A DNA stretch of 64,000 nt from Muricea muricata. Its lineage: Eukaryota > Cnidaria > Anthozoa > Malacalcyonacea > Plexauridae. Location: positions 10,930,115 through 10,994,114 of the forward strand of contig OY979729.1 of NCBI GenBank assembly GCA_963855995.1, in the 5' to 3' direction. The translations under genes were made by a program, and so were the position numbers. A model generated the notes under the pieces. The model was not told the DNA's origin and did not search any database. It saw only the letters and a program-made list of their open reading frames with translations. The stretch's first letter is position 1, and every line of letters starts with the position of its first letter. This document shows positions 22,635 to 56,049 of this stretch, one piece after another.

Positions 22635-23049
22635 CCCTGGAGGGGACCTAATTAGAGTGGACCTAATTGGGTTTCCAGGTTCAATTCCTGGAGCCATATA
22701 GATGAGCACTTGATGACCATACAGAAGTAAGTATACTAGATATAAACTAATATCAGGTGCTTACAGTTCTTTATAGTAACTCCTTGAATACCTCAAAAAA
22801 CTAAAGGTGTTAACACCTCTTAAGTTTGTTTGGTCAAGAATACCTCAAAGAGGTAATGCTTAATCCCTTAGGAAGTAAAGGTTAACCACTTAGAATTTTC
22901 GTAAAAACACCTCAATTTACTATAGTTTTCCAAGTTTTGGTAAGGTTAACTATAACTGTACGCACTAACTATACTAGATATATGTTTTACCTAAGTATAC
23001 CTTAGTAAAGTAAATGGACTGTAGTCTATAATATCCTAGTAAATATGTT

Positions 23050-23250
23050 CAATTTCCTCTTTATTTTATGATGGTCGACGATGTGTTCTATGAAGAAAGG
23101 ATGCCAACCAACCTCGTCCTAATGCCAACCAGATGAACCATAAGCAGCATCAAACGAGACTAACCGAAGCCACGACCATCAAAAGATAGAGTGAAATTAA
23201 GTAAGTTTGATTATTTTACTTTGTTTTTATTTTCGTTTTTCGGTGTTAAC
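23050..23250 (+). repeat. Diverged copy of the 487-bp family body
   Basis: Holds TTATTTTATGATGGTCGAC, ATGAAGAAAGGATGCCAACC and, after about 100 bases, a donor-like AAGTAAGTTTG. Its mirror partner is at about 55490-55625 on the minus strand. Confidence 0.75.
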
Positions 23251-23270
23251 TCCTGGTTGTTGCAGTCTAA

Positions 23271-23503
23271 AGGCTGTTTTCCAGTTACGCGTTTTTCACA
23301 CGTACGTACACGCACGTAAAAGTCTAAATCAATATCAATGTTACATTTGAAATGAATAAATGTTTTGATGGAGAGAACTCATCATTCCCTACGAGTTAGC
23401 ATACTTTAGTGATTCTACTTGTTAAATACAAACTACTTAGAAGAGTTTAAACTTTTACGTGCGTGCAGGTACGTATACAAAACGGATAACTGGAAACCAG
23501 CCT
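23271..23503. mobile_element. MITE with TAA target duplication, left arm only
   Basis: The ends AGGCTGTTTTCCAGTTA and TAACTGGAAACCAGCCT are inverted copies (15 of 17 match). TAA flanks both sides (23268-23270, 23504-23506). The mirrored right-arm site lacks the element but reads TAATAA on the corresponding strand. Confidence 0.85.
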
Positions 23504-23534
23504 TAAAGCACAAAAAAACATAGCGATTATCATT

Positions 23535-23929
23535 TAACACTTATTGACTGAGACCGAGGGAAACAGTATGTTTTGTGGACCAGAGACTGTCGATGTTTCC
23601 CGAGGCGAAGCCGAGGGAAACATCGACAGTCGAGGGTCCACAAAACATACTGCTTTCCCGAGGTCTCAGTCAATAAGTATTTTATTATATACTGAGTGTC
23701 AAAAGAGAAGAAAAGTACCACAAATCAATCAAACATGTGTAAAAAGGATTACCTTTTACCTGACAAGGCTCCGTGAGGCTCTGTGGATTTGTTATTTACC
23801 GGTGAATAAAAGTAATGTCCACCGCTTAGCAACGTTGCCAGGGAGACAGCAGAATTTCTCCACTATCACGTGATACGTTCTTAACCAATAAGAAACAGGA
23901 ATAAATGATGAACTTTGACATTCAGTATA
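23535..23929. mobile_element. Palindrome-headed MITE of ~395 bp, left arm only
   Basis: One end is a near-perfect hairpin of about 140 bp: ACACTTATTGACTGAGACC to GGTCTCAGTCAATAAGT with the GC tip CGAGGCGAAGCCGAG. The remainder is a unique body ending ATTCAGTATATAATAA. The mirrored right-arm site (near 55383-55395) is empty. Related copies lie at 33639-34404 and 44894-45260. Apparent reading frames come from the hairpin and are not genes. Confidence 0.85.
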
Positions 23930-23950
23930 TAATAATATATTTTCTACTAT

Positions 23951-24550
23951 AACCATTTGCAAGCTACCGTTCACCGTGCATTCAAAACAACGTTTTAAAA
24001 AGTTATGAAGAGCATGTTAGTCAGTCGAAACTTATTAGTTTCAGCTGTCAAACTTGTAAGTTTTGAACGCGTAACTTGTAGTTTTGTGCGCGTAACTTGA
24101 AGTTTTGGTGCTGTAACTTGTAGTTTTGATGCCATAACTTGTAGTTTTGATGCCATAACTTGTAGTTTTGATGCCGTAACTTGTAGTTTTGATGCCGTAA
24201 CTTTTCGCTTTGTGATTCCAAAATGATGAATATCGCAACACATATACAGTAGCGGAAATTCAGTTGAAGAGGTTTCAACTGAATTTCCGCTACTGTATAT
24301 GTGTTGCAATATTCATCATTTTGGAATCACAAAGCGAAAAGTTACGGCATCAAAACTACAAGTTATTGGAATCAAAACTACAAGTTACGGCATCAAAACT
24401 ACAAGTTACGCGCACAAAACTACAAGTTACGCGTTCAAAACTTACAAGTTTGACAGCTGAAACTAATAAGTTTCAACTGACTAACATGCTATTCATAACT
24501 TTTTAAAACGTTGTTTTGAATGCACGGTGAACGGTAGCTTGCAAATGGTT
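23951..24550. mobile_element. 600-bp palindrome with 21-bp internal tandem repeat
   Basis: AACCATTTGCAAGCTACCG at the left is the inverse of CGGTAGCTTGCAAATGGTT at the right, and pairing continues to a centre near 24268. Both arms contain repeats of a 21-bp unit (AACTTGTAGTTTTGATGCC plus AT/GT). Because 21 is a multiple of three, long frames run through it (for example repeated ASKLQVT), but these reflect the repeat. The mirror copy at 54985-55367 is the same element with a shortened first arm. Confidence 0.9.
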
Positions 24551-24633
24551 GTATGTCTTGTTCTGTCACGTCTGTAAGCTTATTACTCCGCCTGCCGTAG
24601 GCGAGGCGGAGTTTTAAATTCGCCCCGTTTCTG

Positions 24634-24659
24634 TTTTTTTTTTTTTTTTTTTTTTTTTT
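24634..24659. repeat. Poly-T tract, 26 bases
   Basis: Uninterrupted T run. On the minus strand it would be a poly-A tail, so a decayed retroposon is possible, but I could not define its 5' end. Confidence 0.9.
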
Positions 24660-25241
24660 CGGTGTCAGAAGTCGGTGCAGCGCTCATGGGTGATACCGCT
24701 GGCACAAACCGCGTGAGCCGACCTAAACACGGCGTTTAAACTCAATTTCTAGCGAAATGTGTCAACAAAACACGCATTTAAACGTGCATGCTAGAACATC
24801 TAAACCGCAAGAAGGTTTTACGTGCAAAGATTCTCATGCAAAATGCTTTAAAACGACAAATTCCAGCGATGTGTCGCGGTGAAGTTTTGAGAGCGTGTTT
24901 CCGTCATTTTCTGGTTTATTCCTACTTTTAAGGAAATTTAGAAATTTCTACACAAGAATCAAACGCAAATTCTACTGAAATATCTACATACATACAAAAT
25001 GAAGATCGGTGAAGGAACTTCGCAAAAATATTCATTTTTGTACTTTCGAACGGCGTTTTTCCTATGCTTTTGACTGAAAACACGACGAACGACACTTGCC
25101 AGAGCAATTTGCGTGGCGCGTGGAATGACGTGAGCACGGGGACACAAAAATTGAGGTTATTGAGTGCGAGTTCCCTATCTGTATATATCTGATCTGTGAT
25201 ACAGCTTCTTCTGAATCAGGAACAAGGAACTTGCTCGGAGC

Positions 25242-25346
25242 ATGTCGACACAAAGTGGTAGTTTCGGCGTTCCTCGGAATTCGTCGGTTTCCGACGCTGC
25301 TCGAAGATTTTCCGAATACTATTTTTTCAAAATTTTTCTCTAGCTC
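25242..25346 (+). CDS. Candidate first exon or short ORF in a GC-richer patch
   Basis: ATG-initiated frame beginning MSTQSGSFGVPRNSSVSDAA and stopping after about 34 codons. The first 20 codons have mixed, coding-like composition and lie at the end of a locally GC-richer block (25060-25310), as a 5' UTR and first exon might. The second half becomes AT-rich. Only weak donor-like sites are present inside. No downstream exon was identified. It sits in the left spacer next to the palindrome boundary, so a truncated gene fragment is possible. Confidence 0.2.
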
Positions 25347-25896
25347 GAAGATTTTGCTCCTTGAAAGTCCTCTAAATTTTCATGCATCCTAACTTTGTTT
25401 TAAGGTAATATGCTTTATTTTCTATCATTATTTGTAGCAAAGTACTTAGATTGTGCATAGAGATCGATTTTTGAGAGATCAGACTGGAAATAAGTACAAT
25501 TTTCGAGTATTGTAAGTTTGTGCTTTCCAAGCATGGCTATGGTCGCATGTAAGATTAAGGCTACCGTTTTCAGTTGAAGTTGGTTCGATAATAATACCAT
25601 GAAATCCGCTATAGAAACTGAATGAGGTCTTGAATTGTTGAGATTGTCGAAGAAAGTATGCTGAGACAGTTCTATGTATAGAGTTGGTTCTGGTTCAAAT
25701 TTATTGAAAAAAGGCAATTTAATTTTAATTTTGTGAATTTCGATTACAAAACATGCCTTGGACTGTCGACCAATTGATTTCGTCAGGCGATTACAGACTT
25801 GTGAGAGGAGGGGGGTAGCCTAATTACTAAAATGTAGTGAAAAAAGGACTTTCCATCTAATGGTGGGAGCAGGTTGGCGGGAACACTGGAGAATAA

Positions 25897-26327
25897 AGGT
25901 CCTGTCACAATGCAATTTTTCTTGCAACTTGAAATGCAATTCTACTATTGGGAGATGTAAAATTGGCAAATGCAAGTTTCCATCACAGTTTGCTGGGGTT
26001 TTTTAACGTACCAAACATTTGTCACAAATTTACTTAAGAGTAGATTTTCCCTGTAGCAAAAAAGATGGCAAATGTCGATTTTACCAGAGTGCATGGTAGT
26101 CTGAAATTGTTTAAAAAGGCAAATTAACGTCTTTTAAAGAACAGACAGAAGACAATAGGTTATTTTCACACTTGTGTTAAAATTTCAATCCAGTAGCTTT
26201 GTTTCTTGTCATCTTTTCCCGCGTATTCTTTCTTGATACCTGCAATGCATTCTGGTAAAATCGACATGTCGCCATCTTTTTTGCTACGGTGAATGCAAGG
26301 AAAAGTGCACCGTGTGACAGGGCCTTA
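25897..26327. mobile_element. Nested MITE pair at the left palindrome boundary
   Basis: Outer ends are GGTCCTGTCACAATGCAA and the inverse TTGCAAGG...GTGTGACAGGGCC (imperfect). Inner ends at about 26053-26288 are GTAGCAAAAAAGATGGC and GCCATCTTTTTTGCTAC, with a shared ATTTTACCAGA/TCTGGTAAAAT pair. A further outer-end fragment follows at 26360-26405. The mirror symmetry starts inside this element at 26221. The right partner retains only its last portion (52572-52678). Confidence 0.75.
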
Positions 26328-26405
26328 AGGGTAAGAGGTGGATAGAGAAGGAGACGGAGCAGTTACAAGTGCAAGAAAAATTGCACCGTGTGACAGGGCC
26401 TTGAG

Positions 26406-28676
26406 GGTGGGAGGTGGATAGGAGGAGACGGAGCAGGATGTGGGAGTCGTGCAAGGTCGGGAGGTTAAAAAAGAACAAGGAATGTTATGTTTTTAATGCC
26501 TTTTAGACTTTTCTTGAGGCAATTAAAATTCAAACTGTCAAATCCAAACACTGTACAGAATGGCCGACTTTACGTGGTCTTTAGTTTTTACACAACCACT
26601 TGCATTGTTATCTTTTGCAGTTTGTTTACCATTTCAGTTATCTATCTTCAATAGAATTCTTTGAAATTTGTTTGTAGATCGACAAAATGCTTAACCTCCT
26701 CTCAACAACTGGCAGATTATGAAAAATGAAATTGTTAAAGGTATTGGAATATTGCATGTACAATATTGAATATGGGACAATTTGGGACGGTATAATTTTG
26801 GACATGACGGTTTCATTCTCACCTAATTTGACGATTATTTTGTGGGTACACATACCGTGGAATGTCATGTGCTCCAGAAGCATTTTAATCTTAGAAAAAG
26901 TCAAATAATGATGAACTGTGTTTTAAAAGAAAGTTAGAATCTTATTTGGTTCAAATCAATTGAATTATGGCCCAAGAGTTCATGAAAACACATACAAAAG
27001 GCTTTCTTAAAAAACTGAAATATCAAATCTAGCAATTTTATATGTTATGCCTCTAAACAACACAATTCTGTTTCTAAAAATTGGTACCCTACTAGACCTA
27101 TATGCATGATTATACTAATTTGGACATATTTATTTTTACCCATTAAAATATAAATTTGTGTTTAATCATTCGTGTTTGTCATTATTTGACTTTGTAATGT
27201 TGGTTAAACATAAGGAGATTGAGGTGACTTTGCCAGAAACAAAAACATCCATTATTATACTAAAATTTCAATATATGTAGCAATTAAAACTAACCACAGG
27301 AAATATATTTCTACTTTTTAATTGAAATGTTTCTGTTATATGCACTATATCATATTTTTGATAAAAAATTACAACACCTATGTTATTTCCTGGTTTACTA
27401 TCTCAATCATCTTTTGTTTAAGCTGGCTTTGAGTGTTCATTTGAAAGTTTGGAAAGTTCATTTGAAAATCACAATAGTTCTCAATGTTATATTGGACCCT
27501 TTAAAGTTAAAAAAATACTTTGTAATATTTTATACTACTGGTAATTTATCTTAGATACAGACTTTGTGATTTTGTACTAGAATGTTGACTTTCAAACTTT
27601 AAGATGAACTACTTATTAAGGACAAAATAAGCTAGCATATTGTCTTTTGTTTACAAAGTGGAACTTGTTTGGAATTGAGATGAACTGATGCAGTTGTTCT
27701 TTAACTTTATCAATTAATTACATATCTTAAATGAAAAAGAAAACCACAACTTGCCAAATAAATTCTGTGGGCTCTTTTTATTAGCAAAGAAAAGATGTGG
27801 CAGATGTAAGAATTTAAGAGTAAAAAAGTTTCCTTGGACTAAAAAAATTGACAGTATGCCAGATTTTCTAGATAAACAAGCAGTACAGATGTTGGCCAAT
27901 AATAAGTATAAGTAACTACAATTTTTAATTTTAAAAGTTTTCTATTGATGCCTGGATACAGTAAATACTTTACCAGAGTTCTTCGTATTACATCGACTTG
28001 AAAAAGTTTTAAGTCACATGAAGCTTTTAGTTGATACTATGCAATTTCAAATTTTACAGACTTCTTAATTAACATGCCAAATTTACCTTGTTGAACATAA
28101 GGTCTTTCCTGAGAAAAAGTAAAACTGTCTGGCATTATATGGAGTAGAGTAATTTAAATTAGTTTGAGACTTTGATTTGATAACAATTTTGATTTGTACT
28201 ATTTACAATACAAGTGACCGGGTTGTATCGGATATACAAACCCAAGCTGAAGGCGAGATATCTGACATACACAGATGCGAATGTTGTAAATGGCTTGTGA
28301 AACTCGTCAATTTTATACATCAGATCTATAGCAAAGTGATTTTGAAAATACCGATTCTGTAAGATGAGAAAATGATTTCTTTTGTGTTTCCTGTATGATT
28401 TATTACTTTATAAGTTTCTTAATTAAAATTACAACATATTGCCTACTGGAACTTTTTATATTGTTTGGTTGTGGTGAATTTGTATTTTGGCAATTGAAAT
28501 ATTTCTGAATTTGTATGTGCATTTCCTTTGCTTCAGTTCAAGTTTACATTTCAAATATTCCACTTTGTAATACTTGCGTGGTAATAATAATATAAGAAAA
28601 CAGGTTTACATGGCTCTTGAATATAGTCTTTTCAACAAGTAAGTAAAGATGAATTTATACTTCAAAGAGATATGTT
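26406..28676. other. AT-rich arm DNA without a recognisable gene
   Basis: Frames up to 88 codons (for example 26638-26904 minus) are hydrophobic and AT-driven, with no motif. The mirror copy is at about 50223-52493. Confidence 0.4.
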
Positions 28677-29205
28677 CCTAACCTGACAATGGTACCTTCC
28701 AAAAAGACTAAATTTAAATTGATTCTTCGAATAAATTTTTTACTTTTCAATCCAAGATCAATCTAAGTTATGTATTTCTACTTTTATTTTGGTCTCTTTA
28801 ACACTGAAACTATCAATTGTATATAAAGCAACTTCACTATCGAGTGACTTCATTAGTTGCTGGGCAAAGCCAAAGCATTGATTTTTTGGCTGTTTTCAAT
28901 GAAAAATAGAATTTTGCCCAAAGTTATCTCAAATAAATTATCACAATTTGAACAAAAAGCTTCTGTTCTTGTGCCCACCAGAAAAATGAGATGTCTGAGA
29001 CTTTCTTTGTATTTTTTTGCGAAAAATAGATCGCATGCACTGTTATGCAAAGAAAAGTGTAAGAGATTGGTTTCTGAAAAATGTCGTGCTACACACAATA
29101 TTCTAAAAATGCTTGGTTTTTATTCTATGTATTTTTGAATTTTTTGTTAAAAAAAATAAAGGTAGCAATGTTTAGTGCATTTCACATTGTCAGGTTAGAA
29201 ACGCA
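28677..29205. mobile_element. Possible element with 17-bp terminal inverted repeats
   Basis: TTCCTAACCTGACAATG at the left and CATTGTCAGGTTAGAAA at the right are inverted copies with one mismatch, 529 bp apart. A 93-codon frame (28857-29138) lies between but has no recognisable motif. The mirror copy is at 49694-50222. Confidence 0.45.
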
Positions 29206-29995
29206 ATAAGAAAAATGTGGCTCCGAACATTACAGCTTGGTCAATTTGGAATTTATAAAAAAAATCGTTTCTTCGTTGTTTTTCGACGTTTTGAAGGGTT
29301 GTTTCGAGTACAAAAAAGTGTTTTTAGGAAGAATTATGTGCCCACGTTTGATTAAAGCACAATTGATTAAAAATAATATTTTTCTTTTGACAAAAATACC
29401 TTTCTTCTGTGAGGCTGGCTGTATTTGAAAAAGCGTTGGTCAACGCTCCGCCAAAACTCGTGGGTTTTCTCCGGGTACTCCGGTTCTTCCCACTGGGAGA
29501 GTTGACAGGGTAGTTACATATGGTTATAAAAATGTGACTAACTTTTGAAAACCTTTCTACTTAGACTTGTTAAGCCTTCTCGTCATCTCTATCAGTTGCA
29601 TGTTTTGAGCCACATGTTTTTCTTTGTAATTGTGAAACAACTCGTTATATGCTGGGTAAACCTTTGCAAAACTCTCAAAATTTATCACTTCAAGTTGTTT
29701 CATTGTTATAATATATTTTGAAGTATAAACATTTACTTACGTTGAAAAGACCCAAGTTTTTTAGGACTTTGTTCATTCACTTGTGTTATTGTTCTCTCTG
29801 CCATGTTCTGTTTTCTTCTGTTGTTATTTTAATAAGTACAATGTGTGGTAGTTAATCTCTTTTTATTGTTATTCAAATTGTATGTAATCTTTACAAATTT
29901 TTTCAATAAATTGTTTACAAAATTTACTTGTGACCCCTTTTTAATTAAAAATTCAATTCCCATGGGAATTGAGAAATTGAATAAAAAAAATCCCC
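29206..29995. other. AT-rich arm DNA with a SINE-tail-like fragment
   Basis: 29457-29520 contains CGTGGGTTTTCTCCGGGTAC then TCCGGTTCTTCC and GTTGACAGGGTAGTTA, matching the tail of the SINE at 36150-36400. No gene is seen. Mirror at about 48904-49693. Confidence 0.5.
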
Positions 29996-30113
29996 CTACC
30001 CCGGCCAGCTCCCCAAGTGCCACTTCCACCTAAGTAGAAGTACTTATAGATGTAGTACAAGTACTTCTACTTATTCACGGTGGAAGTAGCACTCGGAGAA
30101 CTGGCCGGGGTAG
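29996..30113. repeat. Palindrome of ~118 bp
   Basis: CTACCCCGGCCAGCTCC pairs with GAACTGGCCGGGGTAG, and AAGTAGAAGTACTT words fill the centre. Mirror copy at 48786-48903. Confidence 0.8.
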
Positions 30114-30948
30114 CCGGCAAAGAGAAGACCAACTTTGCAAGTGCTAATACAATTGCTAAGTTGATCTTCCCTAGAGAGCAGCCGCGCGTACCTAACAAAT
30201 TAAAACAACAAACGTTAGTGACTTAAGTACTTAGCATGCAAATTTGATTCCCAAAGCCAAAATGTCAAGTGCCCCCCGCTGATCCTACCAACTGCCTACC
30301 TGCCTCAGTTCTAAGCTGTCTTCCTCAGTTCTAAGCTCCTGCATTCCATTCGTTACCTTCACTTTCCTCACCATCGCACAGTCACTCACAGCTGATAAAC
30401 CCGCATGCACCACCACCACCCCGACTGCCACCCAATTTCGAAAATTAAAAGAGTTAAAATTTCGGTAAAGTATGCATTTTAAATGCAATTTATTTGGATA
30501 TTTTAGATCAAACGTAAACAGAAAAAGCTCGTACATAAAAACAGGTGAGAATTCTATTTAAAATTTGCTTGCAAAATATAAAACTTAATTCGCATTTTTC
30601 TTAGTTAATAGTATAGATCAATTTAGTTGATGTTGAAACCTACTCTTAACTGTTTTGTTAGAAGTGACGACAGATTTTGGTTTTTAAGCATACTTTCAAA
30701 AATTTTAATTCCTTTAATAAACCTAACCCCATGCAACTTACACACGGCGCACACCCTCGCAGTCCATACATTTAGCTAATAAATTACGTTATAAACAAAA
30801 AAGCAAAATAAAAAGATAAATTACGTTATCTCTAGCTACTTAAACCCACTTAGACTGAGTTTTTGATTGAATTTTCAAACGTAAAACCTTAGCTGAATGG
30901 GCATGGGCTTTTCGTTGTGTTAACTGTTCCGGAGTAAATATAAACCTG
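30114..30948. other. Arm DNA without a recognisable gene
   Basis: Contains a short direct repeat of CCTCAGTTCTAAGCT (about 30300-30340). No frame above 83 codons, none recognisable. Mirror at about 47951-48785. Confidence 0.4.
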
Positions 30949-31188
30949 GGGCCGGTTGTATCAAAGGCGTTTAGCTTAAACGGTGGATAAGTGAAATTTA
31001 AAAATCAGTTTTACACCTAGTACGGAACCGAAATTATGAGTTGAAATAGAATAAATATTTAGTTTTATATATAATTGTTCTTCTCAGGTCAAATAACTTC
31101 AGCTGGTTTGTTTATACAACATGGAAACGTGTTTCATATTTTTGACTTATCCACCGTTTAAGCTAAACGCCTTTGATACAACCGGCCC
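30949..31188. mobile_element. PIF/Harbinger-type MITE, left-arm copy
   Basis: 240 bp, ends GGGCCGGTTGTATCAAAGGC and the inverse, with CTG target duplications at 30946-30948 and 31189-31191. Same family as 20384-20622. Confidence 0.9.
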
Positions 31189-31691
31189 CTGATACTTACC
31201 AAAGTCCAAGGCTGGGTCAAATAAGCATGAGAATTAGGCAAAAATAAAAAGCAATTGAAACTCAACAGATTCACTAAAGTTGTTTTTTTTTTTGGCAACT
31301 TATATCCTTAAGTGTAGATGACATGCAATTTTTAATGCCGTAATTCTCACACTTATTTAACCGAAACGCCTTCATTTGCATGGTACCTCGCAGCTGCTCT
31401 CAAACCACCTTCGTAATTTGCTTTAGTGTACACAAACAATGACTTCATTGTTCCTGCTTACCAAAACAAATCTGAAAGCACCAAGATACTTATCATATTA
31501 ATAATCAAAGAGGATTCGCATTATGCAGTAATTACCATAAACAGACGCATCACCATTGAAACAAAGCATGCCGTATTCCCATGGGAATTTAAAATGCACA
31601 AAAAAATATAATGATCCTACTGATTTGCATGGATGTATGAACCAAATTAGCTAAGAAACAAAGAAATGATATATTCCCTTGGGAATTTAAT

Positions 31692-31922
31692 GTAGCAAAA
31701 AGATGGCGGGTGTTGATTTTACCAGAATGCCTTGCGGTCTGAAATCGTTTAAAAACTTAAGGTAAATTAACCTCGTTTGAGGAACAGACAGATAGGTTAT
31801 TTTGTCACTTGTGTTAAAATTCCGTCCATTAGCTTATCTTAAATATCATTTCACTGGTATTCTTGATTGATACCCGCATTAAATTCTGGTAAAATCGACA
31901 TGCCACCATCTGTTTTGCTACG
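31692..31922. mobile_element. MITE with AAAAAGATGG/CCATCT ends, left-arm copy
   Basis: GTAGCAAAAAGATGGCGGG and CCACCATCTGTTTTGCTAC are inverted ends, with inner pairs TTTTACCAGAATG and ATTCTGGTAAAA. Same family as 26053-26288. Mirror copy at 46977-47207. Confidence 0.75.
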
Positions 31923-32861
31923 GTGAATTGGAATACAAGTCACATTTTCTCGCTTTTTAACCAGAGAACACATTCTTTAAAGGTAGAACGACGGAATTGA
32001 TCGTTTGCAATCGACGCCATCTTTGTTGACGTTTGAAACACATGGCAACCACAAAGTATCTATTCATTATATCTGATCCTATCGAGCCATACATCTTTAA
32101 AGTATCATTCATAATACGCTAAAACTAACGATGAAATAGTAAATTGACACTAGTGTTTCGCTGTAAACAGCTGAAGTAATCTGCAGAGTCAACCAAGATG
32201 GCGCCCAATCACACGAAATGACGTCATGTGCAAACCAAGAATAGTGACAAAATGCATCAACTATAATTTAGTGGCATTATTACGAAACTTATTTTTGTAA
32301 AACGTTCAATCCTACATGTTATTTTGTTTTGTTTTTAGAAATATCCAAATCCAAATGTTAGAGACGAAATTTCCAGGCGTTAAGGTATTGTTTCTTTAAA
32401 AAATATTGTCGACATTTACCATATTTTTACCTGTTTTTTGACTCGAAAATTGACTGCCAAACTCCTAGATATTCTATTTAATTATTTTGTTGAATGTATT
32501 TGATATCAATGTTATTTCAATCCAATTTTTTTCACTTAATTTGCTGTCTTTTCTTTTTCATTAACGAGAAATTTCTATTAAATCCTCTTTGATCCCTCAA
32601 TAATAAGTATCTTGTTTTCTACTAACTTGCACATTACCACTACTTTCTATTACAATGTCGTGTCTTCTTATTCTTGTGGATTGTTGTTTTGTGGGTCTTG
32701 CCGTCCAGGATCGTTCATTCTTTTCTCTTCTTGTGCGTTTTTTTCACATCCCATCACCCTTTGCAATAGTAGAAAGAATTAAGTCATGAGATGATAGTTA
32801 CGAATAATTTATAAACTATAACATGATAAGTTTCTTGTACGTTTGCATGGTGAATACAATA
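31923..32861. other. Unassigned arm DNA
   Basis: No gene seen. Includes an AAGATGGCGCCC word (32208-32219) followed by TGACGTCA at 32220-32227. Mirror at about 46038-46976. Confidence 0.4.
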
Positions 32862-32947
32862 TACTTATTAAGCTTTGTGGAAACACCACGTAAATTTATT
32901 ATTGCAATAATAAATTTACGTGGTGTTTCCACAAAGCTTAATAAGTA
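32862..32947. repeat. Perfect 86-bp palindrome
   Basis: Two 43-base halves meet at 32904/32905 without a spacer or mismatch. The start is TACTTATTAAGCTTTGTGG and the centre is TTATTATTGCAATAATAA. Confidence 0.97.
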
Positions 32948-32963
32948 AACTATAACATATTAA

Positions 32964-33107
32964 GCACTTATTGGATGAGGTTTTTGTGATATGCGAAATG
33001 ATCAATGTCGAGGTAAGAGTTATCAGCCGAGCCGAAGGCGAGTCAGATAACTCTTACCAAGACATTGATAATTTTGCATATCACAAAAACCGAATCCGAT
33101 AATTGCT
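32964..33107. mobile_element. Hairpin element with GC-rich tip
   Basis: GCACTTATTGGATGAGG and CACAAAAACCGAATCCGATAATTGC are inverted ends; GTAAGAGTTATC pairs with GATAACTCTTAC. The tip is GCCGAGCCGAAGGCGAG. Mirror copy at 45792-45935. Confidence 0.85.
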
Positions 33108-33328
33108 TTATTATACATTGTAAGTCTTTTTCCTCGAGCAATTGACGAATTTCGCCTTCGGAAGAGCTTAAAAAGCAAGATGCCATGACATGAAACAGAA
33201 AATATCGAAAAAATGTTGTTGCCATGCCAACCATTGATGCCAACGGATACCGCATACTGTAATAATCTGCACCGTAGGCTCAACATGCAGATAACTCAGT
33301 TATCTGCTAGCAGATAACTGAGCCATAG

Positions 33329-45357: not shown

Positions 45358-45570
45358 AATAAGAATACATAGAAGGGCCACTCAGCAGTGCAGCATGTCA
45401 CACTATGTTTATGCAGTTTACTGGCTGCCACCAGCCAGTTCAGCATTCCTATTGGCCAGAAAATGCAATTGACTGGCTGAGAAAATGCTAATAACGTGCG
45501 TAATGCGACATGCGCGGCTTCAAAAACTCCAAAGGCTCCGACGCGAGTGGCCCTTCTATGTATTCTTATT
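45358..45570. mobile_element. MITE, 213 bp, right-arm copy
   Basis: Mirror of 33329-33541. Confidence 0.88.
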
Positions 45571-45791
45571 CTATGGCTCAGTTATCTGCTAGCAGATAAC
45601 TGAGTTATCTGCATGTTGAGCCTACGGTGCAGATTATTACAGTATGCGGTATCCGTTGGCATCAATGGTTGGCATGGCAACAACATTTTTTCGATATTTT
45701 CTGTTTCATGTCATGGCATCTTGCTTTTTAAGCTCTTCCGAAGGCGAAATTCGTCAATTGCTCGAGGAAAAAGACTTACAATGTATAATAA

Positions 45792-45935
45792 AGCAATTAT
45801 CGGATTCGGTTTTTGTGATATGCAAAATTATCAATGTCTTGGTAAGAGTTATCTGACTCGCCTTCGGCTCGGCTGATAACTCTTACCTCGACATTGATCA
45901 TTTCGCATATCACAAAAACCTCATCCAATAAGTGC
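45792..45935. mobile_element. Hairpin element with GC-rich tip, right-arm copy
   Basis: Mirror of 32964-33107. Confidence 0.85.
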
Positions 45936-45951
45936 TTAATATGTTATAGTT

Positions 45952-46037
45952 TACTTATTAAGCTTTGTGGAAACACCACGTAAATTTATTATTGCAATAA
46001 TAAATTTACGTGGTGTTTCCACAAAGCTTAATAAGTA
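45952..46037. repeat. Perfect 86-bp palindrome, right-arm copy
   Basis: Mirror of 32862-32947, unchanged. Confidence 0.95.
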
Positions 46038-46976
46038 TATTGTATTCACCATGCAAACGTACAAGAAACTTATCATGTTATAGTTTATAAATTATTCGTA
46101 ACTATCATCTCATGACTTAATTCTTTCTACTATTGCAAAGGGTGATGGGATGTGAAAAAAACGCACAAGAAGAGAAAAGAATGAACGATCCTGGACGGCA
46201 AGACCCACAAAACAACAATCCACAAGAATAAGAAGACACGACATTGTAATAGAAAGTAGTGGTAATGTGCAAGTTAGTAGAAAACAAGATACTTATTATT
46301 GAGGGATCAAAGAGGATTTAATAGAAATTTCTCGTTAATGAAAAAGAAAAGACAGCAAATTAAGTGAAAAAAATTGGATTGAAATAACATTGATATCAAA
46401 TACATTCAACAAAATAATTAAATAGAATATCTAGGAGTTTGGCAGTCAATTTTCGAGTCAAAAAACAGGTAAAAATATGGTAAATGTCGACAATATTTTT
46501 TAAAGAAACAATACCTTAACGCCTGGAAATTTCGTCTCTAACATTTGGATTTGGATATTTCTAAAAACAAAACAAAATAACATGTAGGATTGAACGTTTT
46601 ACAAAAATAAGTTTCGTAATAATGCCACTAAATTATAGTTGATGCATTTTGTCACTATTCTTGGTTTGCACATGACGTCATTTCGTGTGATTGGGCGCCA
46701 TCTTGGTTGACTCTGCAGATTACTTCAGCTGTTTACAGCGAAACACTAGTGTCAATTTACTATTTCATCGTTAGTTTTAGCGTATTATGAATGATACTTT
46801 AAAGATGTATGGCTCGATAGGATCAGATATAATGAATAGATACTTTGTGGTTGCCATGTGTTTCAAACGTCAACAAAGATGGCGTCGATTGCAAACGATC
46901 AATTCCGTCGTTCTACCTTTAAAGAATGTGTTCTCTGGTTAAAAAGCGAGAAAATGTGACTTGTATTCCAATTCAC

Positions 46977-47207
46977 CGTAGCAAAACAGATGGTGGCATG
47001 TCGATTTTACCAGAATTTAATGCGGGTATCAATCAAGAATACCAGTGAAATGATATTTAAGATAAGCTAATGGACGGAATTTTAACACAAGTGACAAAAT
47101 AACCTATCTGTCTGTTCCTCAAACGAGGTTAATTTACCTTAAGTTTTTAAACGATTTCAGACCGCAAGGCATTCTGGTAAAATCAACACCCGCCATCTTT
47201 TTGCTAC
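46977..47207. mobile_element. MITE with AAAAAGATGG/CCATCT ends, right-arm copy
   Basis: Mirror of 31692-31922. Confidence 0.75.
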
Positions 47208-47710
47208 ATTAAATTCCCAAGGGAATATATCATTTCTTTGTTTCTTAGCTAATTTGGTTCATACATCCATGCAAATCAGTAGGATCATTATATTTTTTTG
47301 TGCATTTTAAATTCCCATGGGAATACGGCATGCTTTGTTTCAATGGTGATGCGTCTGTTTATGGTAATTACTGCATAATGCGAATCCTCTTTGATTATTA
47401 ATATGATAAGTATCTTGGTGCTTTCAGATTTGTTTTGGTAAGCAGGAACAATGAAGTCATTGTTTGTGTACACTAAAGCAAATTACGAAGGTGGTTTGAG
47501 AGCAGCTGCGAGGTACCATGCAAATGAAGGCGTTTCGGTTAAATAAGTGTGAGAATTACGGCATTAAAAATTGCATGTCATCTACACTTAAGGATATAAG
47601 TTGCCAAAAAAAAAAACAACTTTAGTGAATCTGTTGAGTTTCAATTGCTTTTTATTTTTGCCTAATTCTCATGCTTATTTGACCCAGCCTTGGACTTTGG
47701 TAAGTATCAG

Positions 47711-47950
47711 GGGCCGGTTGTATCAAAGGCGTTTAGCTTAAACGGTGGATAAGTCAAAAATATGAAACACGTTTCCATGTTGTATAAACAAACCAGCTGA
47801 AGTTATTTGACCTGAGAAGAACAATTATATATAAAACTAAATATTTATTCTATTTCAACTCATAATTTCGGTTCCGTACTAGGTGTAAAACTGATTTTTA
47901 AATTTCACTTATCCACCGTTTAAGCTAAACGCCTTTGATACAACCGGCCC
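47711..47950. mobile_element. PIF/Harbinger-type MITE, right-arm copy
   Basis: Mirror of 30949-31188, flanked by CAG (the complement of CTG) at 47708-47710 and 47951-47953. Confidence 0.9.
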
Positions 47951-48785
47951 CAGGTTTATATTTACTCCGGAACAGTTAACACAACGAAAAGCCCATGCCC
48001 ATTCAGCTAAGGTTTTACGTTTGAAAATTCAATCAAAAACTCAGTCTAAGTGGGTTTAAGTAGCTAGAGATAACGTAATTTATCTTTTTATTTTGCTTTT
48101 TTGTTTATAACGTAATTTATTAGCTAAATGTATGGACTGCGAGGGTGTGCGCCGTGTGTAAGTTGCATGGGGTTAGGTTTATTAAAGGAATTAAAATTTT
48201 TGAAAGTATGCTTAAAAACCAAAATCTGTCGTCACTTCTAACAAAACAGTTAAGAGTAGGTTTCAACATCAACTAAATTGATCTATACTATTAACTAAGA
48301 AAAATGCGAATTAAGTTTTATATTTTGCAAGCAAATTTTAAATAGAATTCTCACCTGTTTTTATGTACGAGCTTTTTCTGTTTACGTTTGATCTAAAATA
48401 TCCAAATAAATTGCATTTAAAATGCATACTTTACCGAAATTTTAACTCTTTTAATTTTCGAAATTGGGTGGCAGTCGGGGTGGTGGTGGTGCATGCGGGT
48501 TTATCAGCTGTGAGTGACTGTGCGATGGTGAGGAAAGTGAAGGTAACGAATGGAATGCAGGAGCTTAGAACTGAGGAAGACAGCTTAGAACTGAGGCAGG
48601 TAGGCAGTTGGTAGGATCAGCGGGGGGCACTTGACATTTTGGCTTTGGGAATCAAATTTGCATGCTAAGTACTTAAGTCACTAACGTTTGTTGTTTTAAT
48701 TTGTTAGGTACGCGCGGCTGCTCTCTAGGGAAGATCAACTTAGCAATTGTATTAGCACTTGCAAAGTTGGTCTTCTCTTTGCCGG

Positions 48786-48903
48786 CTACCCCGGCCAGTT
48801 CTCCGAGTGCTACTTCCACCGTGAATAAGTAGAAGTACTTGTACTACATCTATAAGTACTTCTACTTAGGTGGAAGTGGCACTTGGGGAGCTTGCCGGGG
48901 TAG
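48786..48903. repeat. Palindrome of ~118 bp, right-arm copy
   Basis: Mirror of 29996-30113. One visible difference: GAGCTTGCCGGGG against the left-arm complement of CCCCGGCCAGCTC. Confidence 0.8.
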
Positions 48904-49693
48904 GGGGATTTTTTTTATTCAATTTCTCAATTCCCATGGGAATTGAATTTTTAATTAAAAAGGGGTCACAAGTAAATTTTGTAAACAATTTATTGAAAAA
49001 ATTTGTAAAGATTACATACAATTTGAATAACAATAAAAAGAGATTAACTACCACACATTGTACTTATTAAAATAACAACAGAAGAAAACAGAACATGGCA
49101 GAGAGAACAATAACACAAGTGAATGAACAAAGTCCTAAAAAACTTGGGTCTTTTCAACGTAAGTAAATGTTTATACTTCAAAATATATTATAACAATGAA
49201 ACAACTTGAAGTGATAAATTTTGAGAGTTTTGCAAAGGTTTACCCAGCATATAACGAGTTGTTTCACAATTACAAAGAAAAACATGTGGCTCAAAACATG
49301 CAACTGATAGAGATGACGAGAAGGCTTAACAAGTCTAAGTAGAAAGGTTTTCAAAAGTTAGTCACATTTTTATAACCATATGTAACTACCCTGTCAACTC
49401 TCCCAGTGGGAAGAACCGGAGTACCCGGAGAAAACCCACGAGTTTTGGCGGAGCGTTGACCAACGCTTTTTCAAATACAGCCAGCCTCACAGAAGAAAGG
49501 TATTTTTGTCAAAAGAAAAATATTATTTTTAATCAATTGTGCTTTAATCAAACGTGGGCACATAATTCTTCCTAAAAACACTTTTTTGTACTCGAAACAA
49601 CCCTTCAAAACGTCGAAAAACAACGAAGAAACGATTTTTTTTATAAATTCCAAATTGACCAAGCTGTAATGTTCGGAGCCACATTTTTCTTAT

Positions 49694-50222
49694 TGCGTTT
49701 CTAACCTGACAATGTGAAATGCACTAAACATTGCTACCTTTATTTTTTTTAACAAAAAATTCAAAAATACATAGAATAAAAACCAAGCATTTTTAGAATA
49801 TTGTGTGTAGCACGACATTTTTCAGAAACCAATCTCTTACACTTTTCTTTGCATAACAGTGCATGCGATCTATTTTTCGCAAAAAAATACAAAGAAAGTC
49901 TCAGACATCTCATTTTTCTGGTGGGCACAAGAACAGAAGCTTTTTGTTCAAATTGTGATAATTTATTTGAGATAACTTTGGGCAAAATTCTATTTTTCAT
50001 TGAAAACAGCCAAAAAATCAATGCTTTGGCTTTGCCCAGCAACTAATGAAGTCACTCGATAGTGAAGTTGCTTTATATACAATTGATAGTTTCAGTGTTA
50101 AAGAGACCAAAATAAAAGTAGAAATACATAACTTAGATTGATCTTGGATTGAAAAGTAAAAAATTTATTCGAAGAATCAATTTAAATTTAGTCTTTTTGG
50201 AAGGTACCATTGTCAGGTTAGG
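49694..50222. mobile_element. Possible element with 17-bp inverted ends, right-arm copy
   Basis: Mirror of 28677-29205. Confidence 0.45.
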
Positions 50223-52571
50223 AACATATCTCTTTGAAGTATAAATTCATCTTTACTTACTTGTTGAAAAGACTATATTCAAGAGCCATGTAAACCTGTT
50301 TTCTTATATTATTATTACCACGCAAGTATTACAAAGTGGAATATTTGAAATGTAAACTTGAACTGAAGCAAAGGAAATGCACATACAAATTCAGAAATAT
50401 TTCAATTGCCAAAATACAAATTCACCACAACCAAACAATATAAAAAGTTCCAGTAGGCAATATGTTGTAATTTTAATTAAGAAACTTATAAAGTAATAAA
50501 TCATACAGGAAACACAAAAGAAATCATTTTCTCATCTTACAGAATCGGTATTTTCAAAATCACTTTGCTATAGATCTGATGTATAAAATTGACGAGTTTC
50601 ACAAGCCATTTACAACATTCGCATCTGTGTATGTCAGATATCTCGCCTTCAGCTTGGGTTTGTATATCCGATACAACCCGGTCACTTGTATTGTAAATAG
50701 TACAAATCAAAATTGTTATCAAATCAAAGTCTCAAACTAATTTAAATTACTCTACTCCATATAATGCCAGACAGTTTTACTTTTTCTCAGGAAAGACCTT
50801 ATGTTCAACAAGGTAAATTTGGCATGTTAATTAAGAAGTCTGTAAAATTTGAAATTGCATAGTATCAACTAAAAGCTTCATGTGACTTAAAACTTTTTCA
50901 AGTCGATGTAATACGAAGAACTCTGGTAAAGTATTTACTGTATCCAGGCATCAATAGAAAACTTTTAAAATTAAAAATTGTAGTTACTTATACTTATTAT
51001 TGGCCAACATCTGTACTGCTTGTTTATCTAGAAAATCTGGCATACTGTCAATTTTTTTAGTCCAAGGAAACTTTTTTACTCTTAAATTCTTACATCCGCC
51101 ACATCTTTTCTTTGCTAATAAAAAGAGCCCACAGAATTTATTTGGCAAGTTGTGGTTTTCTTTTTCATTTAAGATATGTAATTAATTGATAAAGTTAAAG
51201 AACAACTGCATCAGTTCATCTCAATTCCAAACAAGTTCCACTTTGTAAACAAAAGACAATATGCTAGCTTATTTTGTCCTTAATAAGTAGTTCATCTTAA
51301 AGTTTGAAAGTCAACATTCTAGTACAAAATCACAAAGTCTGTATCTAAGATAAATTACCAGTAGTATAAAATATTACAAAGTATTTTTTTAACTTTAAAG
51401 GGTCCAATATAACATTGAGAACTATTGTGATTTTCAAATGAACTTTCCAAACTTTCAAATGAACACTCAAAGCCAGCTTAAACAAAAGATGATTGAGATA
51501 GTAAACCAGGAAATAACATAGGTGTTGTAATTTTTTATCAAAAATATGATATAGTGCATATAACAGAAACATTTCAATTAAAAAGTAGAAATATATTTCC
51601 TGTGGTTAGTTTTAATTGCTACATATATTGAAATTTTAGTATAATAATGGATGTTTTTGTTTCTGGCAAAGTCACCTCAATCTCCTTATGTTTAACCAAC
51701 ATTACAAAGTCAAATAATGACAAACACGAATGATTAAACACAAATTTATATTTTAATGGGTAAAAATAAATATGTCCAAATTAGTATAATCATGCATATA
51801 GGTCTAGTAGGGTACCAATTTTTAGAAACAGAATTGTGTTGTTTAGAGGCATAACATATAAAATTGCTAGATTTGATATTTCAGTTTTTTAAGAAAGCCT
51901 TTTGTATGTGTTTTCATGAACTCTTGGGCCATAATTCAATTGATTTGAACCAAATAAGATTCTAACTTTCTTTTAAAACACAGTTCATCATTATTTGACT
52001 TTTTCTAAGATTAAAATGCTTCTGGAGCACATGAGATTCCACGGTATGTGTACCCACAAAATAATCGTCAAATTAGGTGAGAATGAAACCGTCATGTCCA
52101 AAATTATACCGTCCCAAATTGTCCCATATTCAATATTGTACATGCAATATTCCAATACCTTTAACAATTTCATTTTTCATAATCTGCCAGTTGTTGAGAG
52201 GAGGTTAAGCATTTTGTCGATCTACAAACAAATTTCAAAGAATTCTATTGAAGATAGATAACTGAAATGGTAAACAAACTGCAAAAGATAACAATGCAAG
52301 TGGTTGTGTAAAAACTAAAGACCACGTAAAGTCGGCCATTCTGTACAGTGTTTGGATTTGACAGTTTGAATTTTAATTGCCTCAAGAAAAGTCTAAAAGG
52401 CATTAAAAACATAACATTCCTTGTTCTTTTTTAACCTCCCGACCTTGCACGACTCCCACATCCTGCTCCGTCTCCTCCTATCCACCTCCCACCCTCAAGG
52501 CCCTGTCACACGGTGCAATTTTTCTTGCACTTGTAACTGCTCCGTCTCCTTCTCTATCCACCTCTTACCCT

Positions 52572-52678
52572 TAAGGCCCTGTCACACGGTGCACTTTTCC
52601 TTGCATTCACCGTAGCAAAAAAGATGGCGACATGTCGATTTTACCAGAATGCATTGCAGGTATCAAGAAAGAATACGT
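52572..52678. mobile_element. Truncated MITE at the right palindrome boundary
   Basis: Holds GGCCCTGTCACACGGTGCA, GTAGCAAAAAAGATGGC and TTTTACCAGAATGC, then leaves the mirror at 52678 within GAATACGTGGG. The left partner continues as the complete element 25897-26327. Confidence 0.8.
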
Positions 52679-52877
52679 GGGAACACAGGTCACCCGGAAT
52701 GCGTACAGTTCTAATATAGCGTTCAGTGGGACAGCATCTGTTACATAATGTATATATTAACACAAAGGTTGGCAAGTAAATACAAATTTGAACACTCGTA
52801 CAAAATTTAAACCACAAAAAAATCTGCAAAAAGACTTCGATATTCATTTAAAAACATACACATATTGAGAAGACATA

Positions 52878-53431
52878 CCTGAAAAGCATGTACGTTGTAT
52901 TTTTGTGTCATTTCAACATTATTTACCCGACGAAATTCGCGAAAAGTCATCAAATTTTTAGTTGATTTTCGCTAAAACTATGCGCGATGCCGGCTGCCTG
53001 CCTTACGTCACAGGAAAAAGCCCCCTGATTGGCCAGCTGAAAACTCAATTTTTTTACCGCGAAAGCAAAACCGGGGGGAGAAATGTTAAAATTTTCAAAG
53101 AGCTACGCCAACGCTGCGGAGGGAAATTTGAAGTGAAAGCTTTTTTAAAAACAGCAACTCAGTAACAACTGCAAACAACTGCGAAAAATTTTAAACTGAA
53201 GTGCAAAAGATGTGAAGAGGTGCAAACGAAGAAGCATTGTAAATTCATTGTATATTACGTGCTCCCCGGTTTTGCTTTCGCGGTAAAAAAATTGAGTTTT
53301 CAGCTGGCCAATCAGGGGGCTTTTTCCAGTGACGTAAGGCAGGCAGCCGGCATCGCGCATAGTTTTAGCGAAAATCAACTAAAAATTTGATGACTTTTCG
53401 CGAATTTCGTCGGGTAAATATGCTTTTCAGG
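52878..53431. mobile_element. MITE with long inverted arms, TA-flanked
   Basis: CCTGAAAAGCAT at the left pairs with ATGCTTTTCAGG at the right, both next to TA. Inside, ATTTACCCGACGAAATTCGC pairs with GCGAATTTCGTCGGGTAAAT and pairing continues for about 150 bp through a CTGATTGGCCAGCTG word. The left arm has a 33-bp insertion after its first 12 bases. Frames in the two arms are mirror images and not genes. Confidence 0.85.
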
Positions 53432-53546
53432 TAGCCTCCTCCTCAGGCAACTTGGGTGGATAACAGGAGATCGTGAAATACTTGGGTGGGATATTGAGGG
53501 GTGTGTGGGGATCTCAATAAGTTTTACGAAAAATCATCGGGGAGTG

Positions 53547-53600
53547 TTAGGGTTAGGGTTAGGGTTAGGGTTAGGGTTAGGGTTAGGGTTAGGGTTAGGG
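53547..53600 (+). repeat. Interstitial telomeric tract, (TTAGGG)9
   Basis: Exactly nine perfect TTAGGG units, with sharp edges (GAGTG before, TTTCC after). Confidence 0.98.
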
Positions 53601-54278
53601 TTTCCTCGACTTTTCATTTTCTACTACTCGTCCCCAAGCCCCTGTAGACCATTTTCGCTCGGCCAATTTTATTTCTCACTCAGAATATTGTCTAAAAGCA
53701 TGCAATTTTCGGATTAAAAACTGCTCGAAAACTTGTCAACTAGTCAAAATCCTTACCAACATTTTATAAACATGCCAAATATTTACCTGACACCTTATCA
53801 ACACATCAAATATCTAATTCAAAGCTGGTCAATATATCAAAAGGCTGGTCAATATATCAAAAGGCTAGCCAACATTTTCCCAACAAATTATATCGTGGAG
53901 ACTTCAGGCAGTGTGCTACAGAATAGATTTAATAAATTGATGGATTTAATAGACTGATGTATTGTATACACTTTTAGTAAAATTTTCTTTACTTGCAAAA
54001 TAAAACAGCTATTTGTTGGTGGCATTATGGCAAAAGAATCTTGTTTAACATATGTACTATTAAAGTCTTTAATCTAAATTAAATTCTAAAAAATGCAATC
54101 CTACTAGGACTCTGGACAGAGCGCCTGGCAGGTCACTCAGACATTGATTTTTGGTTATCTTAGTGATTGCATAAGATGTGCTAGCAATGTCTTAAAATGC
54201 CTTGGAAGGTACCGTAATAATAATTGATTTAAAAAGGAATTAGTTGGACAGAACAGAAATAAGTGAATGTACCCCACC

Positions 54279-54753
54279 CACTAACCACCCCCGACCATTT
54301 GAATTTCCACCCCTACCAGTTTTCGTAGCTTTATAGTTCTCACCACACTCTAGTTATTACGGTTACTGTCAGGTAGGTAAGCCTATCTGACATGCTCAGA
54401 AGGTAACTCTAGTCTACTATAGTTAGTATACTAGAGTTACCTTAGTTGACTAAAGTAACTCTAGTCTACCTTAGTGGTAGACTAGAGTTACGTTAGTTAA
54501 CTAAGGTAGAGTCATGGTAACTTTACCTTAGTTAACTAACGTAACTCTAGTCTGCCACTAAGGTAGACTAGAGTTACTTTAGTCAACTAAGGTAACTCTA
54601 GTATACTAACTATAGTAGACTAGAGTTACCGTCTGAGCATGTCAGATAGGCTTACCTACCTGACAGTAACCGTAATAAACCGACAACACTGAGAACTATA
54701 AAGCTACGAAAACTGGTAGGGGTGGAAATTCAAATGGTCGGGGGTGGTTAGTG
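54279..54753. mobile_element. 475-bp palindrome with TAACTCTAGT-type internal repeats
   Basis: CACTAACCACCCCCGACC at the left pairs with GGTCGGGGGTGGTTAGTG at the right, centre near 54516. Both arms contain repeated GTAACTCTAGTCTAC and complements, so each arm is also locally self-complementary. The left arm has a short segment (CACCACACTCTAGTT) not matched on the right. Confidence 0.9.
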
Positions 54754-54950
54754 AGATTACAAAAACTGTAAGTACCTACATAGTACTATTCATGTTTAGT
54801 ACACTTACCTCTACTAACTATACTAAGTATAGTTAGTGTATACCTGTTAGTGCACATCTATATGGCTCCAGGAATTGAACCTGGAAACCTAATTAGGTCC
54901 ACTCTAATTAGGTCCCCTCCAGGGTCATTTTTTTGTTAAAACTTTATAGC

Positions 54951-56049
54951 AATAAGCTTACAGACGTGACAGAACAAGACATACAACCATTTGCAAGCTA
55001 CCGTTCACCGTGCATTCAAAACAACGTTTTAAAAAGTTATGAATAGCATGTTAGTCAGTTGAAACTTATTAGTTTCAGCTGTTGAAACCTCTTCAACTGA
55101 ATTCCCGCTACTGTATATGTGTTGCGATATTCATCATTTTGGAATCACAAAGCGAAAAGTTACGGCATCAAAACTACAAGTTACGGCATCAAAACTACAA
55201 GTTATGGCATCAAAACTACAAGTTACAGCACCAAAACTTCAAGTTACGCGTTCAAAACTTACAAGTTTGACAGCTGAAACTAATAAGTTTCGACTGACTA
55301 ACATGCTCTTCATAACTTTTTAAAACGTTGTTTTGAATGCACGGTAAACGGTAGCTTGCAAATGGTTATAGTAGAAAATATAATGATAATCTCTATGTTT
55401 TTTTGTGCTTTATTAGACTGCAACAACCAGGAGTTAACACCGAAAAACGAAAATAAAAACAAAGTAAAATAATCAAACTTACTTAATTTCACTCTATCTT
55501 TTGATGGTCGTGGCTTCGGTTAGTCTCGTTTGATGCTGCTTATGGTTCATCTGGTTGGCATTAGGACGAGGTTGGTTGGCATCCTTTCTTCATAGAACAC
55601 ATCGTCGACCATCATAAAATAAAGAGGAAATTGAACATATTTGCTAGGATATTATAGACTACAGTCCATTTACTTTACTAAGGTATACTTAGGTAAAACA
55701 TATATCTAGTATAGTTAGTGCGTACAGTTATAGTTAACCTTACCAAAACTTTGAAAACTATAGTAAATTGAGGTGTTTTTTACGAAAATTCTAAGTGGTT
55801 AACCTTTACTTCCTAAGGGATTAAGCATTACCTCTTTGAGGTATTCTTGACCAAACAAACTTAAGAGGTGTTAACACCTTTAGTTTTTTGAGGTATTCAA
55901 GGAGTTACTATAAAGAACTGTAAGCACCTGATATTAGTTTATATCTAGTATACTTACTTCTGTATGGTCATCAAGTGCTCATCTATATGGCTCCAGGAAT
56001 TGAACCTGGAAACCCAATTAGGTCCACTCTAATTAGGTCCCCTCCAGGG
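54951..56049. repeat. Outer right arm of the giant palindrome
   Basis: Mirror of 22635-24584. Contains the shorter copy of the palindromic 21-bp-repeat element (54985-55367), the empty site of the TAA MITE (55410-55415), a minus-strand 487-family body (about 55440-55640) and the T-arm motif at 55993-56009. Confidence 0.85.
54985..55367. mobile_element. Shortened copy of the 21-bp-repeat palindrome
   Basis: Same outer ends as 23951-24550, but one half is largely deleted: AAACTTATTAGTTTCAGCTG is followed directly by the central TTGAAACCTCTTCAACTG. Confidence 0.88.

Follow-up and report, generated by a model that had tools for sequence, protein, structure and literature searches.

The window analysed in the current study is a stretch of 64,000 nucleotides from the cnidarian Muricea muricata (GenBank assembly GCA_963855995.1, contig OY979729.1, positions 10,930,115 to 10,994,114 of the forward strand), the centre of which is occupied by a giant palindrome. 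Self-BLAST and base-level alignment place its arms at 26216-39372 and 39948-52683, around a loop of 575 bp (39373-39947). The arms differ by 0.12% (15 substitutions in 12,733 aligned bases, comprising 9 transitions and 6 transversions), or by 0.09% when columns in CpG context are left aside, and further by gaps of 1 and 2 bp; of the mismatches, 11 fall within the inner 5 kb and the other four within the outer 7,711 bp. Paired coordinates sum to 78899 in the outer part and to 79298-79320 in the inner part. A preliminary description of this DNA had drawn the two halves as inverse copies with these sums and with few single-base differences, and had proposed computing the divergence with and without CpG sites; the geometry is fully borne out and the two values are those given above. 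A match of such length and identity could not be produced by chance.

As argued below, the palindrome very probably makes up the body of a giant rolling-circle transposon that is non-autonomous and belongs to the Helitron2/Helentron (HINE) kind, and the window copy of which appears to span about 24580-54279. Its features, among them the asymmetric terminal inverted repeat (ATIR) of the 5′ end and an insertion resembling a miniature inverted-repeat transposable element (MITE), are collected in Table 1. The preliminary description had contained neither the mobility of the palindrome nor the element end at 24580 nor the HINE remnant that extends to 54279.

Table 1. Features of the palindromic unit and its flanks, in window coordinates.
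Feature	Position	Strand	Remark
5′-side host flank	22626-24579	+	palindromic and tandem repeat families
Helitron2/Helentron-type 5′ end	24580-24612	+	T-rich border, then ACTCCGCCTGCC (5′ ATIR)
5′ ATIR ACTCCGCCTGCC	24585-24596	+	inside hairpin 24585-24612
Poly-T tract of 26	24634-24659		after the 5′ hairpin
Left arm of the mobile unit, 14.8 kb	24580-39372	+	core 26216-39372
Arm/HINE joining point	25708	.	arm position 1129 from the 5′ end; not joined in the window
MITE-like insertion, 399 bp	33925-34323	+	confined to the left arm; not transferred to the right
25-bp block	39143-39167	+	left arm only; loop-proximal left/right difference that escaped conversion
Loop, 575 bp	39373-39947	.	contains the 33-mer counted genome-wide
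Right arm	39948-52683	-	left-arm type in the inner part, except for about 200 bp beside the loop
Replacement for the outer right-arm end	52684-53720	.	includes an inverted-repeat stretch (by eye)
HINE remnant	53721-54279	+	99.6% identical to positions 1297-1855 of 1941 of the HINE in copy C15
Self-palindromic MITE-like stretch	54279-54753	.	adjoins the HINE remnant
3′-side host flank	54951-56058	-	inverted near-copy of much of 22626-24579

Dispersed copies and their ends

The assembly, comprising 453,007,491 bases in 74 contigs, was searched for short patterns from the palindrome. Pattern counts are complete at up to 2 mismatches; individual places are the first 100 matches, exact ones first and in contig order within each mismatch class (the matches listed), and the labels of copies begin with their contig (e.g. 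C9_4228). The loop 33-mer occurs at 272 places (148 forward, 124 reverse) and a 37-mer of the arm, some 10 kb from the loop, at 525 (265 and 260), a ratio of 1.93 arm markers per loop, and reversed patterns, used as controls on the whole assembly, gave no match for either. An exact inverted pair of arm markers flanks 42 of the 56 loops compared, with a median span of 19.8 kb, while nine loops have one exact marker and five have none; these 56 loops represent the stretch common to both sets of listed matches, and arm markers were counted as exact matches only. If all 272 copies were of full length they would make up about 8 Mb, or 1.8% of the assembly, which is an upper bound. The junction between arm and HINE described below was found at 174 places, again at up to 2 mismatches; among the matches listed, 66 of the 68 exact junctions in the compared range pair with a loop, at a median distance of 13.2 kb, in a pairing that left out two exact-match loops on C14 and C15.

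Five further copies were read together with 20 kb of sequence to either side of the loop, and four more in the surroundings of the loop, two of the latter also at their ends; with the window included, ends were read for eight copies. All eight possess, on at least one side, the same 5′ terminus, in which a T-rich border is followed by the 5′ ATIR within a 28-nt hairpin folding at -12.8 kcal/mol, a value reached by none of 200 shuffles. In five of the eight (C15, C9_4228, C9_8153, C7_14052 and C9_8556) the opposite arm stops at arm position 1129 and is joined to a 1.94-kb HINE or to its start, the junction reading ...GCCTTTTT followed directly by ACTCCGCC.... The HINE reaches its 3′ end in four (C15, C9_4228, C7 and C8), and this end is composed of GGCAGGCGGAGT (the 3′ ATIR, located 22 bp before the end) followed by ACGCCTTAGCAGGCGT, in the order ATIR, GA, hairpin and CTTG; it is whole in C15, C9_4228 and C7, carries one changed hairpin base in C8 and is lost in the window. 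The 3′ fold is weak when taken alone (15 of 200 shuffles were as good), and in all four copies that keep the 3′ end TT stands directly after CTTG. The order of the unit is 5′ end, 14.8-kb arm, loop, inverted arm to position 1129 and 1.94-kb HINE, with lengths, read directly, of 30,990 bp (C9_4228), 33,388 bp (C15) and 28,765 bp (C7).

These constant ends sit in differing flanks: outer matches of at least 250 bp between the five copies appear to be arm, HINE or short repeat-family matches, and the outer ends of the unit differ in the four copies that keep the HINE 3′ end. When the flanks of C9_4228 were joined (500 bp), they matched a contiguous stretch at 36115-36621 of the same piece with 94.7% identity over 511 bp, and the border of this paralogous empty site, TATAT/TTTAC, shows no target duplication. 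Separately, a stretch of about 1.4 kb in the flank of the C4_15381500 piece (36820-38236) is about 80% identical to the arm region 29606-30947 and is possibly an older relative of the arm.

Homogenisation and inversion of the arms

In four copies (C4_15381, C8_14168, C9_4228 and C9_8153) the inner right arm forms a lineage of its own. Within and between these four unconverted copies, inner left (L) and right (R) arms differ by 12.6-17.2 per mille, left arms among themselves by 5.2-6.4 and right arms by 3.4-7.7 per mille, and in a ten-copy comparison over a shorter piece the L-R distance is 9.2-14.5 per mille. Since the two lineages are distinct both within and between the four copies, the arms were already unequal in the transposing unit, which transmitted both. 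The two arms of a single copy are sisters in five of the ten copies (window, C15, C7_14052, C8_11768 and C9_8556; support 0.69-0.97); those of the window are 0.5 per mille apart in the outer segment and 2.2 in the inner, and the inner arms of C15 are 1.2 per mille apart. In four of the five the right arm is mainly of L type with R type near the loop, and R type predominates in both arms of C7_14052, which indicates that conversion goes both ways; in C9_2839 the arms come from two different lineages. The types rest on 49 diagnostic columns, 25 of which represent one 25-bp indel, and because they were defined on the four unconverted copies these look pure by construction; in the homogenised copies, a few of the columns disagree with the main type.

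A second measure is the number of private variants across the entire arms, compared in six copies over 11,845 complete columns. Those present in both arms number 8 in the window, 9 in C15, 0 in C9_8153, 9 in C9_4228, 6 in C8 and 11 in C4, and those present in one arm 10, 6, 42, 25, 29 and 33, respectively; by this measure C9_8153 shows no sign of conversion. The arm-to-arm gene conversion that the preliminary description had offered as one of its explanations thus finds support in the sister arms of five of ten copies and in the both-arm private variants of five of six. L/R mismatches cluster inward of about window position 31500 in C4, C8 and C9_4228, leaving few in the outer arm.

The right side of C8 carries, after a 3-kb interruption of the arm, an inverted 5′ end and then some 260 bp resembling the left host flank, followed by about 160 bp of unassigned sequence and by the HINE from its position 121. 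The copied flank is 96.8% identical over 253 bp to the left host flank at the same locus, and the hairpin is whole on the right, the left copy being degenerate. The simplest reading would be that copying from the left arm ran past the element end into host DNA. The flank belongs to a repeat family, whose identity to the C9_4228 flank is 85-87%, well below 96.8%; an independent origin of the flank copy is nonetheless conceivable. Taken together, homogenisation of the arms copy by copy, in both directions and in place, appears well supported by the sequences compared.

The position of the junction relative to the loop also varies. Among the matches listed (98 loops), the junction lies to the right of the loop in 47, to the left in 17 and on both sides in one, and none lies within 26 kb in 33, so that 17 of the 65 copies for which a junction is listed have a flipped interior. 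As for the 5′ end, six of the eight end-read copies have it on the left (C8, which has it on both sides, being counted as left) and two, C9_4228 and C4, on the right. Crossover between the arms explains such flips, and the 17 may stem from many separate events or from a single flipped lineage. One loop on C3, near 19905345, has the junction to either side, as would be expected if conversion had carried the HINE over into the other arm as well.

The window copy and its surroundings

In the window, the inner right arm appears to have been overwritten by the left arm, except beside the loop. The right arm stops at 52683, which corresponds to arm position 1637, and the sequence that replaces its outer end contains an interstitial perfect run of (GTTAGG)9.5 at 53546-53602. 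The left-arm insertion at 33925-34323 has a related copy at 23534-23945 (96.9% identity).

The preliminary description had let the symmetry resume beyond unrelated spacers. The left spacer (24580-26215) is in fact outer arm, large parts of which occur, to differing extents, in both arms of C4, C8 and C9_8153/C9_4228, and part of the right spacer (53721-54279) is HINE remnant. The outer symmetry itself stands for 22626-23270 and 55413-56058, which match at 99.2% over 646 bp outside the element, while the match of 24274-24553 with 55092-55370 sits in a self-palindromic stretch. That this outer symmetry (22626-24579 with 54951-56058) forms part of the palindrome was rejected, since the element ends at 24580 and the HINE remnant lies in between; insertion into an array of palindromic repeats and a local inverted copy are the two possible origins. 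The flanking repeats were not matched to the coral MITEs of one published study consulted.

Elsewhere in the window, a unit of 487 bp is repeated 3.1 times at 21174-22693, and repeats akin to it border several copies of the palindrome; the unit includes a GGTTCAATTCCTGG stretch resembling a tRNA B box. A tandem satellite of 142 bp occupies 5256-9910 (32.7 copies, 98% matches), and a further inverted repeat of 549 bp at 94.5% pairs 17165-17713 with 18144-18692. An open frame of 568 aa on the reverse strand (61767-63473) gave weak, below-cut-off matches to coiled-coil families and 13 relatives in a protein search, an identical entry among them and one with PF01166 (TSC22); the frame is perhaps an exon of an animal TSC22-type gene. 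Scans of the window with Rfam (at the gathering threshold) and for tRNAs gave no match.

Family assignment, alternatives and comparison with known systems

Helitron2 elements have a 5′ ATIR 0-2 bp from the 5′ end that contributes to a hairpin there; their 3′ ATIR, which stands just ahead of another hairpin, lies 20-30 bp from the 3′ end. Insertion after T runs, with no target duplication, occurs in some of them (PMC3627910). HINEs are non-autonomous Helentrons with the same end parts, often with a microsatellite and central tandem repeats (PMC4067079, PMC7492417). The unit described here shares all of these traits: a 5′ ATIR in a hairpin, a subterminal 3′ ATIR with its hairpin, T-rich borders without target duplication (one empty site), the poly-T tract of 26 as a microsatellite near the 5′ end, central repeats of 31 bp x 12.1 (in the HINE module of the C7 copy) and, in the frames tested, no recognised transposase. 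A canonical Helitron (Helitron1, with 5′ TC, 3′ CTRR and A-T insertion) was rejected, the ends being TT-ACTCC and GTCTTG with T-rich borders.

In a scan of open frames, the Pfam cut-off was passed by none of 23 frames inside the unit and none of three outside, the 23 consisting of 22 of the 34 frames of at least 70 aa plus one right-arm frame, with shorter frames, spliced genes and the HINE module lying outside the scan; one frame of the unit had two below-cut-off matches (E 0.025 and 0.044). The unit would on this basis be non-autonomous, no coding capacity having been recognised in the 23 frames tested. Its 3′ end motif occurs at 1,094 places in the assembly, which places the unit in a large family, and a search for Helitron_like_N, in which 150 of 352 candidates were scored, gave matches of which the longest open frame has 2,738 aa and some contain stops. 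Since Helitron_like_N proteins are encoded elsewhere and the 3′ end motif is so frequent, the transposition machinery is probably present in the genome.

The high degree of likeness between the arms of the window is, when the window is taken alone, compatible with an assembly artefact in which two haplotypes, or a read fold, were joined head to head, and the preliminary description had considered such an inverted haplotype join. We reject it, and consider any artefact of this kind next to impossible, given 272 loops, 525 arm markers and 174 junctions across the assembly in a single arrangement wherever compared, four copies that keep distinct L and R inner arms common to several loci, and the different flanks of the copies. 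Recent formation at the locus, also suggested there, is not the case either, as the palindrome arrived pre-formed as a transposing unit. Some flanks are palindromic repeat families that could mediate exchange, and the palindrome might accordingly have been spread by segmental duplication or ectopic recombination and not by transposition; constant ends beside differing flanks, a clean empty site and one internal junction that recurs at 174 places render this very improbable. Just as little can be said for a terminal inverted repeat (DDE) transposon or Foldback element with terminal inverted repeats of 14 kb: it would accommodate the 5′ end sequence on both sides of C8 and the two arms of C4 that extend past the point of junction as far as arm positions 99 and 3, but not the outer ends that differ in the four of eight end-read copies keeping the HINE 3′ end, nor the single empty site that lacks a target duplication.

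The homogeneity of the arms could also date from the birth of each copy, if hairpin-templated synthesis or mismatch repair of a 13-kb stem equalised them in a single-stranded intermediate, and the four homogenised copies whose right arm is of L type until near the loop are what a folded strand predicts. This nevertheless seems unlikely, since C9_8153, with 0 both-arm and 42 one-arm private variants, indicates that transposition alone need not equalise the arms, since the tract copied in C8 includes about 260 bp of the flank of its own locus, and since the L/R mismatches of C4, C8 and C9_4228 are concentrated in the inner part of the arms.

Several observations weigh against the assignment of the palindrome to a mobile Helentron-type unit with homogenised arms. 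The junction is lacking in three of the eight end-read copies (window, C8 and C4), and the HINE remnant of the window lacks the last 86 bp, i.e. the 3′ ATIR and the hairpin, so that mobility is read from other copies. Among the matches listed (the first 25 for C8), the joined flanks of C15, C8 and C7 had no spanning empty site. For 33 of the 98 loops listed, the list of exact junctions contains none within 26 kb, a number that is an upper bound since junctions with one or two mismatches fall outside the list. The elements with PF14214 matches are at most candidate autonomous partners, and the both-arm private variants may in part have been inherited from an unsampled source copy. Furthermore, C1 and C2, the largest contigs, have among the matches listed no loop (at 0-1 mismatch), no exact arm marker and no exact junction; this absence at 0-1 mismatch is not predicted by simple transposition. 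C1 to C3 reach at least 123.8, 67.1 and 59.9 Mb, or about 55% of the assembly, and C3 holds two loops, two arm markers and three junctions among the matches listed, the listed loops on C4, C5, C6 and C7 numbering 16, 28, 23 and 20. All 100 exact matches listed for the 3′ end motif fall on C1 (83) or C2 (17), which shows that these contigs are not foreign to the family.

We propose that DNA behind a Helentron 5′ end was duplicated inversely, possibly through replication-based inverted amplification. The product would have been a palindrome that bore a 5′ end at either side but lacked a terminator, until a HINE landed at a T run in one arm and supplied one. RepHel proteins encoded by autonomous relatives in the genome may move the unit, with transposition initiated at the 5′ end and terminated by the HINE, while recombination between the arms would keep these alike by conversion and flip the middle by crossover. 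A bolder version, which we consider doubtful, is that the palindromic body shields the transferred strand as a folded 13-kb duplex and that stem repair resets the arms at each jump, the unit having spread to about 270 loci with the largest chromosomes hardly reached; in that case the palindrome would have a function in the transposition cycle instead of being its cargo.

Long palindromes are usually viewed as unstable oddities of single loci. Here a palindrome has become a high-copy mobile element, apparently by means of a terminator from a second transposon, and its some 270 replicates allow the direction and tract length of conversion, the barrier at the loop side, the rate of inversion and the run-through into host DNA to be measured. 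It also raises the question of how a rolling-circle mechanism handles a 13-kb self-complementary strand. The mobility and arm homogenisation of this probable giant palindromic non-autonomous Helentron are well supported; among the papers listed in a search of titles and abstract openings, with few subscription journals covered, none describes a palindromic Helitron or Helentron.

A close parallel to the behaviour of the arms is offered by sex-chromosome palindromes such as those of apes, which have large, near-identical arms subject to arm-to-arm gene conversion. The likeness extends to the near-identical arms, the short spacer, the gene conversion and the inversions; however, those palindromes are amplicons at fixed loci, whereas the present unit, with arms that are alike within a copy, is dispersed (272 loop copies).

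Among transposons, the unit differs from other Helitron2/Helentron HINEs in its size, being about 30 kb as opposed to the 657 and 673 bp of two described non-autonomous Helitron2 families (PMC3627910), in its body, which is a palindrome of 26-29 kb whose arms convert and invert, and in its 3′ end, which is borrowed from a nested HINE. For Helraiser, transposition is reported to begin at the 5′ end and may stop at another downstream terminator, carrying the intervening DNA (PMC4778049); by the history proposed above, the terminator of the present unit would lie inside its own arm and the cargo would be its own mirror image. With Foldback elements and giant elements such as Teratorn (PMC6431247), it has in common long inverted repeats in a mobile element, but it has another type of end, a body that is almost wholly palindromic and, in the frames tested, no recognised transposase or viral gene.

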